Source: Ancylobacter vacuolatus
GTDB taxonomy: Bacteria > Pseudomonadota > Alphaproteobacteria > Rhizobiales > Xanthobacteraceae
Assembly (NCBI RefSeq): GCF_030813595.1
Contig: NZ_JAUSUH010000004.1
Location: 124,001-188,000 of the forward strand
Direction: 5' to 3'
DNA: 64,000 bases
Below are positions 7,577 through 14,155 of this stretch, in pieces. The notes under the pieces are model-generated. The model was not told where the DNA came from, searched no databases, and worked only from the letters and a program-made list of their open reading frames with translations. A program made the translations under genes and the position numbers. Position 1 is the first letter of the stretch. Each line of letters begins with the position of its first letter.

Positions 7577-9937
7577 TCAGCTTCCGAGACCCCTCTCGCC
7601 GGGCTCATGCTGCGCAAAAAGTCGTTTGCTGAGAATGGCATGGACGCCCCAATTGCCGTCCACCACCTGGGTGATGCCGAAATCCACGGCCGCCGACATC
7701 AACGCCACGGCCTCATCCTCGCTCAAGGCCTTCGTGGACATCAGGAAGCGCCTCATCTTGCGGAAGGCATCGCGCATGGCGAGATCGAGCGAGGATTTGG
7801 CATAGACTTCGCTCTGACTGCTGGCCCCGAATTCGGCGAGGTAGTTGGGGTGGCTGAAGCCGGTTAACACCCAGTCTTCCGGCGTCTCGATCAGCGGGTA
7901 GGTCAGGTCGGCGAGCACGGTGCCACCGATGTTGGCTTTCTTGTGCAGGGTGACGCAGAAGGTTCCGGTCATCGAACACTCGATCGCCGTGCCCGAAAGC
8001 TCGCCATCGCCCTGCGCGGCGTGCGGATCGCCGACGGAGAGCAGCGCCCCGGGAACCGACACGGGCAGATACACCCTCGCCCCCTTGCCGAGCCGCCAAT
8101 TGTCGAGATTGCCGCCGAAATAGGCCGGAGGCACTGAATCGACGAGTTCGGCCTCGCGCGGCGCCACCGCGATCACGCCGAAATGCGGCCGCAGCGGAAT
8201 TCGCACCCCATTCAGCACCTTCTCCTGCAAGGTCACGGTGCCGGGTCGAACCAACACGCCGGGATAGTCATAGAGCATATGCTGGACTCCGGACGGGTCG
8301 GTCTGCGGCTCCCAGCGGTAGGAATGAAGAGCCCTGGCGTAGGGTTCGTCGGTATCGGTGACGATCTCATAGATCGTCACGCATTCGCGCGGGTGCGGCT
8401 CGCTGAGCAGTTCGGAGTAGTGGTAGCCCCACCAGGCCGCCACGCTGCTGCCGAACACCCGGCCGGCATGGGCGGGATGGCGCGAGCGGCGGGGCACGAT
8501 GTCGAGAATATGCACCTCCAGAACGTCGCCCGGCTGCGCCCCATGCACCGCGATCGGCCCGGTGCAGATATGCACCCCGAACCCCTCCCCGGCGCCGCGC
8601 CCGAACACAGAGGCGTCGAGCGGGCCAGCGCCGCGCCGGTTCACCGTCTTGTCGGTCGACGTCCAGTGGAACACGCTTTCCGCCCCGGGATCGCCTTCGA
8701 TCATGCGCTCGGGATCGTCCGAGGCGTGCTGGGTCAGCGTCTCGACCGTGACGATGTCGCCGGAGGCAATCTCGATCAGCGGTTCGAGCGAGCGGCTGAA
8801 ATAACCCCAGTGCACATGCTGGGCGTGGACCGGCAGATAGTGCCGCGCCGGCGCCTCCGACACAGGTGTCCCCACCTCGCCATCCTCGCGCAGCGCCGGC
8901 CGGCGCACCGGCCCGCTCGCGACCTGACGCGCCCGCAATTGGACCAGTGCCTCCTGCGGCCAGCCGCGCTGCCCGCTCGCCACCGCGCTGTGCGTCTGCC
9001 GGTCGACTTCGCGGCGGCGTAGCTCGCGCGGCGGCAGGCCGAAGCGTTCGCGGAACAGGCGGCTGAAATGGGCGGCGTCAGCAAAGCCGCAGCGATAGGC
9101 GATCTCGGCGATCGGCACGGCGGCCTCGGCCGGGTTGGCCAGGTCGTGCCAGGCCCGCTGCAGCCGTCGCTCGCGCAGATAGTGGCTGAAGCTCTCGCCC
9201 GTTCCCTCGAACAGCTTCTGCACATAGCGCTCCGAAATGCCCTCGGCCTGGGCGATGTCGGCGATCGAGATGTCCTCGCTGCCAATGCTGCGCTCGATGG
9301 TGGCGTAGAGCCGCTGGAGCAGCGCCGCACGGCTGGAGGACGGGTCGCTGGTCGCCGCCACCAGCTCGCTGGACAAGGCCAGCAGCAGTTCGGCTGCGCT
9401 TTGCGCCACCGCCTCCCATTCCGATTCGGAGAGCCGATCAAGCGCCTCGGCGGTGGCGAGCGCGGTGCGACCCACAATATCCGGCAGCCCCTCCGCCCCA
9501 AAAACGCGCGGCTGGGCGGCGGCCAGCGGCGGCACCTTGCGGCCGCGAAACGCCTCCGCCGGGACGGAGAGCACCACGGCCCGCAGCCCGCGCTGGAACT
9601 GCAGCTGCCAGTCCGCTCCGCGCGGTGCGAGGATGAGCTGGCCGGTGGCGACGATCTGCCGGTCGTCTCCGGCCACCAGCACCGTACTGTGCTCGACCGG
9701 AATCAACAGCAGCGGCAGGCCGGCGCTGGGCGGCAAAGAGCGCAGGCTCTGCGCGTCGGCCGAGAATTTGCCCAGCCGCACGCCGCTCGAGGACAGGCGC
9801 GAGAGCGCGCTGGCATGGGCGGGCGACCCGTGCCGTGCACCCTGCGACTGCAGGCCGAAGCCGCGCAGCACGTCCTGCCACGCAGCCTCGCCCGCGTCGC
9901 CCGAATAGGACTCGCTAGTAAAGGGTTGAGCGTTCAT
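7577..9937 (-). CDS. AraC-type regulator fused to acetamidase/formamidase
   Basis: One uninterrupted 786-residue frame. About residues 45-190 resemble the AraC_binding_2 sensing domain. Residues 210-308 are a full double-HTH AraC/XylS domain (ISIADIAQAEGISERYVQKL, then AEIAYRCGFADAAHFSRLF). Residues 365-786 are a complete FmdA/AmdA-type amidase starting HVHWGYFSRSL and containing GDPHAAQGDGELSGTA. The amidase part is plainly paralogous to the free-standing enzyme encoded just upstream at 10063-11301. It is the last gene of a minus-strand uptake and hydrolysis operon. A regulator whose sensor is, or derives from, the pathway enzyme is the likely reading. Whether the amidase half is still active is unknown. 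Confidence 0.9.
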   Translation of the reverse strand: MNAQPFTSESYSGDAGEAAWQDVLRGFGLQSQGARHGSPAHASALSRLSSSGVRLGKFSADAQSLRSLPPSAGLPLLLIPVEHSTVLVAGDDRQIVATGQLILAPRGADWQLQFQRGLRAVVLSVPAEAFRGRKVPPLAAAQPRVFGAEGLPDIVGRTALATAEALDRLSESEWEAVAQSAAELLLALSSELVAATSDPSSSRAALLQRLYATIERSIGSEDISIADIAQAEGISERYVQKLFEGTGESFSHYLRERRLQRAWHDLANPAEAAVPIAEIAYRCGFADAAHFSRLFRERFGLPPRELRRREVDRQTHSAVASGQRGWPQEALVQLRARQVASGPVRRPALREDGEVGTPVSEAPARHYLPVHAQHVHWGYFSRSLEPLIEIASGDIVTVETLTQHASDDPERMIEGDPGAESVFHWTSTDKTVNRRGAGPLDASVFGRGAGEGFGVHICTGPIAVHGAQPGDVLEVHILDIVPRRSRHPAHAGRVFGSSVAAWWGYHYSELLSEPHPRECVTIYEIVTDTDEPYARALHSYRWEPQTDPSGVQHMLYDYPGVLVRPGTVTLQEKVLNGVRIPLRPHFGVIAVAPREAELVDSVPPAYFGGNLDNWRLGKGARVYLPVSVPGALLSVGDPHAAQGDGELSGTAIECSMTGTFCVTLHKKANIGGTVLADLTYPLIETPEDWVLTGFSHPNYLAEFGASSQSEVYAKSSLDLAMRDAFRKMRRFLMSTKALSEDEAVALMSAAVDFGITQVVDGNWGVHAILSKRLFAQHEPGERGLGS

Positions 9938-10062: not shown

Positions 10063-11301
10063 TCAGCGCGCCGGGAAGAGGCTCTTGCGGATCGAGCCGG
10101 TGACGCCCCAATTGGCATCGACCACCTGGGTGACGGCGAAATCGGCCGCCACCGACATCAGCGAGATCGCTTCGTCCTCGGAGAGCTTTTGCGTGGTCAT
10201 CAGGAAACGCCGCAGCTTGCGGAAGGCGTCGCGCATGGCGCTGTCGAGGCTGCCGCGCTTGAGGATTTCGCTCTGGTGGTCGGGGCCGAGCTCACTCAGA
10301 TAATTGGCGACGCTAAAGCCATAGACCGACCAGACATCGTCGTTTTCGAGCAGCGGGTGGGTCAGCCCCTCCAGCATGGTGCCGTCAAGTTCCTCTTTCT
10401 TGTGCAGGATGAATTCGAACTCGCCGGTGAGCGAAATTTCGATCGCGGTGCCCGACAACTCGCTATCGCCCTGCGAGGCGTGGGCGTCGCCGCAGGAGAA
10501 CAGCCCGCCGGGCACGGCGACCGGGTAGTACATCCGCGCGCCCTTGGCGATGCGCCAGTCGTCCATGTTGCCGCCGGTGTAGTTCGGCGGAATGGTGGAG
10601 ACGAAGTCGGCCTCGGCCGGGGCAAGGCCCATCGTGCCGAAATGCAGTCGCGCCGGCACCTTGATGCCCGGGAGGATCCCCTCCTTCTTCACGATCGTGG
10701 TGTGGTCAACCCGCACTCCGGGATAGTCGATGGTCGGGTGGGTAATGCCATCGGGATCGGTCTGCGGCGTCCAGAGATAGGAATAGAGCGCCTTCACCGA
10801 GGCGTCGCCCATATCGAGCTCATAGATGGTGACGACCTCACGGGGGGCTGGCCCCTCGATCAGGTCCTTGTACTGGAACCCCCAATTGGCCGCCGGGTTG
10901 GAGCCGAAGAAGCGCCCGGCATAGGCGGGGTTGGCGCTCGGGCGCGGCCAGGTGTCGATGACCCGCACCTCGATGATGTCGCCTGGCTCCGCGCCCTCCA
11001 CTGCCACCGGGCCGGTGAGCAGGTGCACGCCCAGCCCCTCGCCGGCACCATAGGTGAAGGGCCCGTCGGTCGTTCCGGCGCCGCGACGGCGCAGGGTCTT
11101 CTGGTCCTTTGTCCAGAGAAAGATCTCCTCCGCCGCCCGGTCGCCTTCGATCATGCGGGCATAGTCGTCATTGGCGTGATGGGTGATGGATTCGATCATC
11201 GCCCTGTCGCCGGACTTCAGCGTGAGCACCGGCGCCAGGGTCTTGCTGAAATAGCCCCAATGAACCGTGTCGGGCGTGGCGGGCAGATGATGCTTGGTCA
11301 T
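10063..11301 (-). CDS. Acetamidase/formamidase family enzyme
   Basis: 412 residues from the ATG at 11301; the open frame runs a little further upstream without a ribosome site. It matches the FmdA/AmdA amidase family along its length: TVHWGYFSKTLAP at the start, GDIIEVRVID and GDAHASQGDSELSGTAIE in the middle, and the conserved C-terminal DAFRKLRRFLMTTQKLSEDEA block. It hydrolyses short amides to the acid and ammonia in the cytoplasm. It lies between a fused ABC transporter gene and the regulator-amidase fusion, so it is the probable catabolic enzyme for the imported substrate. Confidence 0.92.
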   Translation of the reverse strand: MTKHHLPATPDTVHWGYFSKTLAPVLTLKSGDRAMIESITHHANDDYARMIEGDRAAEEIFLWTKDQKTLRRRGAGTTDGPFTYGAGEGLGVHLLTGPVAVEGAEPGDIIEVRVIDTWPRPSANPAYAGRFFGSNPAANWGFQYKDLIEGPAPREVVTIYELDMGDASVKALYSYLWTPQTDPDGITHPTIDYPGVRVDHTTIVKKEGILPGIKVPARLHFGTMGLAPAEADFVSTIPPNYTGGNMDDWRIAKGARMYYPVAVPGGLFSCGDAHASQGDSELSGTAIEISLTGEFEFILHKKEELDGTMLEGLTHPLLENDDVWSVYGFSVANYLSELGPDHQSEILKRGSLDSAMRDAFRKLRRFLMTTQKLSEDEAISLMSVAADFAVTQVVDANWGVTGSIRKSLFPAR

Positions 11302-11346
11302 GTCGAACCTCGGGAAACAGGAACGGGCGGCTGCAAGGCAGCACAC

Positions 11347-12981
11347 CTATTCGGCGGTCATGGAGCTGAGAAAGCGTGCGGTCAGCGGGTGGGAGGGGGC
11401 GGAGAGAAGGCGCGCGGCCGGCCCTTCCTCGACGATCACGCCGCCGGACAGGAACATGATGCGGTCGGCAACATCGCCAGCGAAGCGCAGTTGGTGAGTG
11501 GAGATAATCATGGCGAGCCCCTCCTCCACCGCCAGCCGGCGGATCACCTCCAGCACCTCGCCGACCAGTTCGGGATCGAGGGCGGAGGTCGGCTCGTCGA
11601 GCAACAGCACGGTCGGCGACGGTGCCACAGCGCGGGCGATGGCGACGCGCTGCTGCTGGCCTCCGGACAGGTGGCGCGGCAACGCGTCAGCCCGGTGGGC
11701 AAGGCCGATGCGCTCCAGAAGATCGCGGGCGCGACGGTCAGCGTCGAAGCGCGAGAGCCCCTGCACCCAGCGCAGCGGGCCGGCGATGTTCTCGCGGGCG
11801 GTCAGGTGGCCGAACAGGTTGAACTGTTGGAACACCATGCCGACGCCGACGCTGGCGCGCATCTGCGCCGTCATCCGCGGCGAGAGCGGACGCCCGTTTT
11901 CGTCCACACCCAACGACCGGCCGCCGACCCGGACGGTGCCGTCCTCCCAGCCTTCCAACCGGTTGATGCAGCGCAACAGGGTGGACTTTCCCGAACCCGA
12001 GGGGCCGAGCAGCGCCACCACCTCGCCCGCGCGCACGGTCAGGTCAATGCCGTCGAGCACGGTCTGCGCGCCATAGCTCTTGCGCAGCCTCCGCGCCTCC
12101 ACGGCGATATTGTTGCCAGCGAGACGCGCCGCGCGGGCGGCGGGGTCTCGCCCGGTACTTACAGGCTTGGGCGAGGCGGGCGGCAGCGGATCGGCGACGA
12201 TCTCGGCCACGATCTCGCGGGCGACATCCGGCGGGGTGACGCCGGTCGCGGGAACCGCCAGTTCGGGAAAGGCATCCGGCCGGCCCGGCACCAGCACCCG
12301 GAAGAAACGGCGCAGCTGCTCGCGCGGCGGGGGCCGGTCGAGATCGAGCAGCATTTCGACCACGATCTGGATCACCGCAATGGCGCCGGTGAGCACGAGG
12401 TACATCAGCCCGGAGGCGAAGAAGATGGAGAAGAAATCGAAGGTGGCCGATGCCAGCTGGGTCGAACGCAGGGTCAATTCCTGCACCGCTACCACGGAGG
12501 CGAGCGAGGAGTTCTTGAGCGCGCTCACCGCCTCATTGCCGAGCGCCGGCACCATGGAGCGGATTGCCTGCGGGGCGATGATGCGGCGCATGATGGCGGC
12601 CGGCGTCATGCCCAGCGCCTGCCCGGCGCTCACCTGCCCGCGCTCCACCCCGAGCACGTTGGCGCGCAGGATTTCCGCGATGAACGGCGCCTCGTTGAGC
12701 GCGAGCGCCAGGCTGGCGGCGGAGATGGCGGAGAGCTTGATGCCAATCAGCGGCAGGGCGTTGTAGCAGAACACCATCTGCAGGATCAGAGGTGTCCCGC
12801 GGAACACGATGGCGTAGGCCCGCGCGACAATCGCCAGCGTGCGGAAGCGCGAGAGCTGCATGGCCGCGAGGACGACGCCCATGACAAGCCCACCGAGCAG
12901 ACCGAGCACGGTGATGAGGAGCGTGTAGCCCACTCCGTCGAGGAGGTAGGGCATGCCCAGATAATGCAGGAAAAGATCCAT
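11347..12981 (-). CDS. Polar amino acid ABC transporter: permease fused to ATPase
   Basis: 544 residues from the ATG at 12981. Residues 1-225 are a HisM/GlnP-type permease with about five membrane spans and the EAA loop (GMTPAAIMRRIIAPQAIRSM). A 70-residue Pro-rich linker follows. The rest is a complete GlnQ/HisP-type ATPase: Walker A GPSGSGKST, signature LSGGQQQR, Walker B VLLLDEP and the switch His in STHQ. Most systems encode these as separate proteins. It belongs with the binding protein upstream and the amidases downstream, so the cargo may be an amide or amino acid derivative. Confidence 0.92.
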   Translation of the reverse strand: MDLFLHYLGMPYLLDGVGYTLLITVLGLLGGLVMGVVLAAMQLSRFRTLAIVARAYAIVFRGTPLILQMVFCYNALPLIGIKLSAISAASLALALNEAPFIAEILRANVLGVERGQVSAGQALGMTPAAIMRRIIAPQAIRSMVPALGNEAVSALKNSSLASVVAVQELTLRSTQLASATFDFFSIFFASGLMYLVLTGAIAVIQIVVEMLLDLDRPPPREQLRRFFRVLVPGRPDAFPELAVPATGVTPPDVAREIVAEIVADPLPPASPKPVSTGRDPAARAARLAGNNIAVEARRLRKSYGAQTVLDGIDLTVRAGEVVALLGPSGSGKSTLLRCINRLEGWEDGTVRVGGRSLGVDENGRPLSPRMTAQMRASVGVGMVFQQFNLFGHLTARENIAGPLRWVQGLSRFDADRRARDLLERIGLAHRADALPRHLSGGQQQRVAIARAVAPSPTVLLLDEPTSALDPELVGEVLEVIRRLAVEEGLAMIISTHQLRFAGDVADRIMFLSGGVIVEEGPAARLLSAPSHPLTARFLSSMTAE

Positions 12982-13056
12982 TGGCCTTCTTCGCAACGGA
13001 GGAGAGCGGCGGCCGCGAAGGGAACGCGCGGCCGCCGGTGCCGGCGCCTCGGGAGG

Positions 13057-13989
13057 TCAGTCGGCGAGCACCAGCTTGGGGGCCTCAAGCTGGTCAGCGG
13101 GCAGGTTCCACTTCTTCATCAGCTCCGCCTGCACGCCGGCCGTCTGCAGCGCAGTGAGCGCCGCCATCACCGCGTCGCGGAACGGGATGTTGTTGCGCGG
13201 CACGGCGATGCCGACCGAATAGGGCAGCGTGACCGCCGTCGCTTTGTCCAGCTTGTCCGGATAGGCCTTCACCGCGCCGTCGACGGTGTTGACGTCGTTG
13301 ATGTAGGTATCGGCGCGCCCGGCGAGGATGGCCTGGATGCAGTTGGCGTTATTGTCGAACAGCAGGATTTCCGGCGCCGGCTTGCCGGCGGCCTTGCATG
13401 CGGGCTCCAGCGCCTGGATCAGCGGCACTTCAACATAGCCGGTATTCTCGGCCGCCACCGCGCCGCACAGCGAGGCGTCGATGCCGGTGATCTTCTTCGG
13501 GTTGCCCTTGGCCACTAGCACCCCGTCATACACCTTCAGATAGGTGATGAAGTCCGCCGCCTTCGCGCGGTCCTTGGTGGCGTAGATGTCGGAGATGACG
13601 ATATCGGCCTGACCGGCCTGCAGGGTGGTGAGCAGCGAGGCGAACGTCACCGCCTTGTAGGTCAGCTTGAAGCCGAGGCAGTCGCCGATCGCCTCGCCGA
13701 GATCAATATCGAAGCCGATATAGTTGGTCGGATCCTTGGGGTCGATCGTCTCATAGCCCGGCGTGTGCGGGTTGATGGCGTTGACCAGCGTCTTGCCCTT
13801 GAGGTCGGGATATTTCGCCTGCAGCGTGGCGCAGGCTTCCGGCGTGGCGGCCTGCGCCATCTGCGGCAGGCCGGCGGTCAGCCCCCCGGTGGCGAGGGCC
13901 AGGCCAAGGGCGCCGAAGAGGGCCGAGCGAAGGTGCGAGACGACGGACAGGCGCGGCCTGCCGGAACGGATGTCGAGAGCGTGTGCCAC
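13057..13989 (-). CDS. ABC transporter substrate-binding protein, family 3
   Basis: 310 residues from a GTG at 13989 with a strong AGAGGAGA site seven bases away. An extended signal peptide ends near QAATPEAC. The mature part has the family 3 two-lobe pattern: YIGFDIDLGEAIGDCLG, then LLTTLQAGQADIVISDIYATKDRAKAADF. The Asp of the amino acid-binding pocket region is recognisable. It delivers a polar amino acid-like ligand to the fused transporter encoded 75 bases downstream. First gene of the minus-strand amide operon. Confidence 0.92.
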   Translation of the reverse strand: MAHALDIRSGRPRLSVVSHLRSALFGALGLALATGGLTAGLPQMAQAATPEACATLQAKYPDLKGKTLVNAINPHTPGYETIDPKDPTNYIGFDIDLGEAIGDCLGFKLTYKAVTFASLLTTLQAGQADIVISDIYATKDRAKAADFITYLKVYDGVLVAKGNPKKITGIDASLCGAVAAENTGYVEVPLIQALEPACKAAGKPAPEILLFDNNANCIQAILAGRADTYINDVNTVDGAVKAYPDKLDKATAVTLPYSVGIAVPRNNIPFRDAVMAALTALQTAGVQAELMKKWNLPADQLEAPKLVLAD

Positions 13990-14155
13990 GTAACTTCTCC
14001 TCTGCTAGCGTGCCCCGAGGGACGGCCAGACGGATAGCGAGGCCCGAAGTGTGACGCAGGAGGGGTCGAGGAGACTTGTCTGAGGGCGCACCGATTGTTG
14101 GATGGGCAGATGCCAACGCGCAGGCATATCAGCCTAATTAATGAGCAGTTTTCGC

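Follow-up and report, generated by a model that had tools for sequence, protein, structure and literature searches.

The locus raises the question of why an AraC-type regulator should carry a whole amidase, and what that amidase might do there. We analyzed the window, a 64,000-nucleotide stretch of the genome of the soil bacterium Ancylobacter vacuolatus. The original prediction described a 786-residue frame with a sensing domain, an AraC double helix-turn-helix (HTH) and a complete amidase, and a free-standing amidase paralogue encoded directly upstream. Profile searches and fold matches bore out this architecture, and the paralogue is present as a Pfam PF03069 gene. The features of the locus are as follows.

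7577..9937, minus strand: AraC-amidase fusion of 786 aa (open frame, domain profiles and fold matches)
9338..9937, minus strand: AraC-type N-terminal domain, fusion residues 1-200
9008..9325, minus strand: AraC double HTH, fusion residues 205-310 (HTH_18 and AraC-type HTH fold matches)
8849..9007, minus strand: linker, fusion residues 311-363 (pLDDT <50 at 316-360; lowest conservation of the protein)
7613..8848, minus strand: amidase domain, fusion residues 364-775 (profile, fold, conserved residues and selection)
10063..11346, minus strand: free-standing amidase (Pfam PF03069; homology from about residue 16)
11347..12996, minus strand: ABC permease and ATPase in a single protein (Pfam PF00528 and PF00005)
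13057..13989, minus strand: SBP_bac_3 solute-binding protein (Pfam PF00497)
14076..14100, minus strand: candidate operator CAACAATCGGTGCGCCCTCAGACAA (sole strict-pattern match in the window; conserved at other fusion loci)

The double HTH scored 82 bits with HTH_18 (cut-off, 33.6) and 42.7 bits with HTH_AraC in the profile search. Profile and fold comparison identified the N-terminal domain as AraC-type, with a fold match to CuxR, and the C-terminal domain as a full-length member of the FmdA_AmdA family. FeaR scored best among the NCBIfam profiles, and the fusion lay below all equivalog cut-offs among the matches listed; with the formamidase FmdA profile (NF045496) it reached 68 bits against an equivalog cut-off of 500. 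The AlphaFold model of the fusion had a mean pLDDT of 71 and a pTM of 0.51 and was weak at residues 602-613 and 644-648, which surround the conserved amidase core. The free-standing amidase matched the solved structure 3b9t with an E of 1.9e-172, while the closest solved relatives of the solute-binding protein were amino acid binding proteins.

A stop or frameshift hidden at residues 310-365, or an absence of homologues, had been feared at the outset; both were refuted, as the frame is open in many genomes and the homologue search proposed with the prediction recovered the same joining across Ancylobacter and other genera. The fusion was present in 28 of 30 Ancylobacter genomes, in one or two copies each. 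The second fusion in the window's genome is also 786 aa long, has the same domains and is 48% identical; its neighbours are divergent TRAP genes (DctP, DctM), a gamma-glutamyltranspeptidase gene and a DAO-type FAD oxidoreductase gene. Counting as full-length a single match that spanned query residue 98 or lower to 772 or higher (read from the match listings), and scoring two candidates per genome, we found full-length fusions in 20 of 397 genomes of the order, 4 of 385 of a class sample and 8 of 398 of a phylum sample, the three samples overlapping. Nineteen plasmid records held a match, 14 of them covering at least 80% of the fusion protein, and two further plasmid copies, in Novosphingobium and Paraburkholderia, were fused as judged by frame. 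Plasmid carriers included Rhizobium, Neorhizobium, Sinorhizobium, Caballeronia, Paraburkholderia, Variovorax and Novosphingobium. Public annotation gives several plasmid copies as acetamidase/formamidase family proteins and one as an AraC family transcriptional regulator, so each half had already been noted in databases. The plasmid copy of Rhizobium johnstonii (L110:8589-10998) is split into two genes in its annotation, and the N-terminal part is in a different frame. In addition to both fusions and the free amidase in the window, the window's genome has five more FmdA_AmdA genes (C5:311375, C1:500294, C2:255428, C9:151179 and C9:175076), some of them adjoining ABC transporter genes.

The fused amidase domains grouped together in both trees that we built. 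The quick tree kept 116 of 120 domains (L004, L090, L091 and one frame of <280 residues were left out) and placed the 51 fused domains on one side of a branch with an SH-aLRT of 99. In the careful tree, from which eight more free rows were left out (near-copies and the distant L007 row) to leave 108 domains, the same 51 formed one clade with a bootstrap of 100 (200 bootstrap trees) and an SH-aLRT of 99. No unfused amidase fell inside the fused clade among the rows sampled in either tree, and the topology indicates that the fused amidase domains share one origin. The AraC halves of the fusions were set apart from eight unfused Caulobacter AraC proteins with a support of 100, in a tree with long branches and with six other AraC rows outside the count.

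We found that the expected promoter regions of the fusion loci have a motif in common, CAA-N6-GTGCG-N8-CAA, whatever transporter adjoins; this shared motif is new here. A conserved block was common to the regions upstream of the binding-protein gene at eight Ancylobacter loci, and the same core was present in other genera; the cross-genus rows had been picked by the downstream half of the motif, leaving only the upstream CAA box independent in that alignment. The gap before the TRAP-type fusion carried a nearly invariant version, as did several of the gaps that separate a fusion gene from a divergent amidase gene. Extra CAA boxes were seen by eye upstream in Bradyrhizobium-like rows. The fair tests of the motif are fixed-pattern counts with control patterns, both at the fusion loci and in the Ancylobacter genomes. 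The pattern CAA-N6-GT.YG-N8-CAA gave 53 matches in 51 of the 53 fusion loci (960,872 bases), as against three for its reversed form and three for its complemented form. At 48 of the 53 loci it was in place, meaning inside the promoter region expected for the locus (ABC-type, 23/26; TRAP-type, 16/16; divergent-amidase, 7/8; and, before the free amidase, L105 and L108). The locus DNA of L104 and L129 held no exact match to this pattern, and L106, L109 and L124 had matches elsewhere only, the locus DNA of L106 not covering the binding-protein gene promoter. When one mismatch was allowed, L104, L109 and L129 each gave a match in place as well as matches elsewhere. Since several fusion loci are near relatives, these occurrences are not independent events.

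In its strict form, CAANNNTNNGTRCGYNNNNNGNCAA, the motif had a single match in the window with up to one mismatch (14076..14100; 0.05 expected by shuffling). The 5.02-Mb genome of the window contained three exact strict matches (control, 0), at both fusion loci and near a GntR gene, and four with one mismatch allowed (control, 2). The third exact match (L137:3891-3915; G000:C9:44890-44914) is at the start of the GntR-like gene and precedes a racemase-like gene by about 230 bp, both genes being named by eye, and a nearly identical match was present in two other Ancylobacter genomes. Across the 30 Ancylobacter genomes there were 43 exact strict matches, compared with one for the reversed control, and 39 of the 43 were at fusion loci. 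Nineteen lay about 4.1-4.2 kb upstream of the window-type fusion, which occurs in 20 Ancylobacter genomes with a free amidase adjoining in 20/20, and 20 preceded, by about 0.1 kb, a fusion that shares 46-49% identity with the window's. Three of the remaining four were alike (the GntR site and those in two other genomes) and one was a stray. No strict match was found at the 45-48% identical fusions of G1097 (contig 23; its second fusion), G1111 and G1119, at the fusion of G1102, or in G1113 and G1115, which are without a fusion.

The motif, AraC and amidase also associate without a fusion, since eight Caulobacter loci hold all three. A separate AraC gene directly follows the amidase gene at these loci, and the motif was present at all eight, about 2.1-2.3 kb upstream of the amidase and twice in five of them. 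At L062, the one locus of the eight that we annotated, the motif separates a TauD-type gene from a Rieske-LigB-amidase-AraC operon. This operon (L062:5838-11950) encodes a Rieske oxygenase, a LigB-type dioxygenase, the amidase, AraC and a polysaccharide deacetylase family protein, with the TauD gene divergent, and it is perhaps a pathway for a nitrogen-containing compound. A relative of the Caulobacter Rieske gene also occurs at the fusion loci L108 and L124. The comparison set with the Caulobacter loci comprised 42 loci (415,591 bases), including the fusion locus L068; with L068 and the eight Caulobacter loci set aside, it gave three matches to the loose motif, namely two by a free amidase locus (L083:2633-2862) and one by an AraC gene of a Hyphomicrobiales MAG (L074:2543). 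Simple stop loss between neighbouring genes in the Caulobacter order was rejected as a route to the fusion, because the amidase gene comes first in that order.

Taken together, the conserved fusion, its kept amidase and the presence of the motif at both fusion and Caulobacter loci make it very probable that the protein acts locally as the regulator of an operon for taking up and hydrolysing amides. It is most likely an activator rather than a repressor, as we infer, and the motif is the candidate site that its AraC half would recognise. We propose that the AraC half would bind CAA-N6-GTGCG-N8-CAA in front of the transporter genes, while the C-terminal amidase domain would bind the amide of the pathway, or a compound closely analogous to it, and would probably still hydrolyse it; induction would then be gated by the substrate and would stop by itself once the substrate is spent. 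An amidase domain that binds, and probably cuts, the inducing amide fits best because a conserved amidase is attached to a regulator of amide genes. The likeliest reading is that the amidase domain gates the regulator, as a sensor or as an inducer sink, and we put its chances, with a coupling to transcription that we infer, at about even.

Uptake genes neighbour the fusion, with transporter types that differ between loci. The neighbours comprise amino acid type ABC and TRAP transporters, gamma-glutamyltranspeptidase (GGT), FAD oxidoreductase, RidA, and Rieske and LigB oxygenases, and they suggest that the substrate is an amino-acid-like or nitrogen-containing compound. A RidA-family gene was near 13 of the 26 ABC-type fusion loci (L103, L106, L110-L115 and L119-L123), directly after the fusion in 12 of those 13, hinting at an imine or enamine intermediate. 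A second, free amidase adjoined the fusion at 37 of the 53 loci, so the fused amidase is not needed there merely as a catalyst. No free amidase was found in the locus DNA examined at any of the 16 TRAP-type loci, and the fused domain may therefore simply be the enzyme at these. An alternative is that the protein has two independent functions, AraC sensing by the N-terminal domain and a working amidase, joined only so that both are expressed together. An N-terminal domain of the AraC type is indeed present and may be the only sensor, the linker is variable and predicted to be disordered, and the TRAP-type loci could use the fused copy as their enzyme; against this, most loci already have the free amidase (37/53), and the fused clade had no unfused member in the rows sampled, where one might expect some were the joining unimportant. 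We consider this alternative unlikely, although it survives better than the others.

The residue comparison between fused and free amidases, suggested with the original prediction, came out divided: nine polar residues were kept, whereas H403, G590, M622 and Y624 were changed. The polar residues (D471, N610, D612, D637, H639, Q642, D644, E646 and E653) do not vary among 69 free copies and were kept in 51 of 51 fused copies, as befits FmdA_AmdA members; Q642 is M in the solved structures 3tkk and 2ii1. Two small residues invariant in the free copies vary in the fused ones (G643 kept in 48/51, A651 in 46/51). The four changed positions shift together as a group between free and fused copies: H403 is H in 64/64 free copies and Q in 49/51 fused copies, G590 is G in 63/64 and A in 46/51, M622 is M in 64/64 and V, L or I in 49/51, and Y624 is Y in 62/64 and L in 51/51. 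When the window's copy was compared with seven Ancylobacter relatives, dN/dS spanned the same range, 0.05-0.17, in the fused and in the free amidase, and purifying selection on the fused amidase is thus as strong as on the free enzyme. Against the same relatives, the HTH gave 0.01-0.20, the N-terminal domain 0.09-0.27 and the linker 0.19-0.69. We rejected a functionless HTH on the HTH dN/dS and the conserved motif, and decay of the fused amidase on the kept polar residues and the low dN/dS. The loss of H403, the accompanying changes at G590, M622 and Y624, and the free paralogue next to 37 of the 53 fusions would all suit a dead or nearly dead amidase kept only as a ligand-binding sensor, but we regard this as distinctly improbable, given that the fused copies keep every one of the nine polar residues, that their dN/dS is as low as that of the free enzyme and that H403 is without a counterpart in two FmdA-type copies, where its column is gapped. 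A sequencing artefact, chance read-through or a decaying gene, for which the two-gene annotation of the Rhizobium johnstonii copy might speak, is refuted by the many open frames, the single clade and purifying selection, and its probability is negligible.

Local regulation with substrate-gated induction is thus our best explanation as a whole, and we hold it with middling confidence. The conserved fusion and the shared motif suggest a switch that senses its food by an enzyme like the one digesting it. More tentatively, such proteins may form a family of single-protein substrate sensors, each with an amidase active site, kin to the enzyme of the pathway, that would gate an AraC activator by binding and cutting the substrate.

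Like AraC/XylS regulators such as FeaR and CuxR, the fusion has an AraC-type N-terminal domain, a double HTH and a candidate site before an operon; unlike them, it bears a whole C-terminal amidase domain. With the 3b9t-like branch of the FmdA_AmdA family it has in common a full-length domain, the fold and the conserved polar core, but it differs in being joined to a regulator, in H403Q and the other changes of that group, and in its low score for formamidase (68 bits of 500). Btr and AryK, whose HTH profiles matched the fusion (profile lengths, 531 and 759), are AraC-type regulators with an extra large C-terminal domain, siderophore-binding and glycosidase-like, respectively; they are long AraC-type proteins like the fusion, but their extra domains are not amidases. 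PutA, BirA and Ada are enzyme-regulators that, like the fusion, have a DNA-binding domain and an enzyme domain within a single polypeptide, although their folds and reactions are different and the coupling of enzyme and DNA binding in the fusion is so far a prediction. The fmdCABDEF cluster of Methylophilus methylotrophus, induced by formamide and urea, has genes for amide uptake, for a putative positive regulator and for an FmdA-AmdA formamidase; unlike in the window's fusion, regulator and formamidase are described there as separate products (PMC10781810). The original prediction knew of no characterised example of this layout, and our search of the open-licence literature likewise found no description of an AraC-amidase fusion.

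If the amidase domain does gate transcription, an enzyme domain would have been recruited to sense for a pathway of its own kind. Direct tests of the fusion can draw on the free paralogue, the unfused relative and the candidate operator, and the protein could find use as a switch that responds to amides. In many bacteria from soil and from plants, an amide pathway so far uncharacterised now has a putative regulator and a predicted site.
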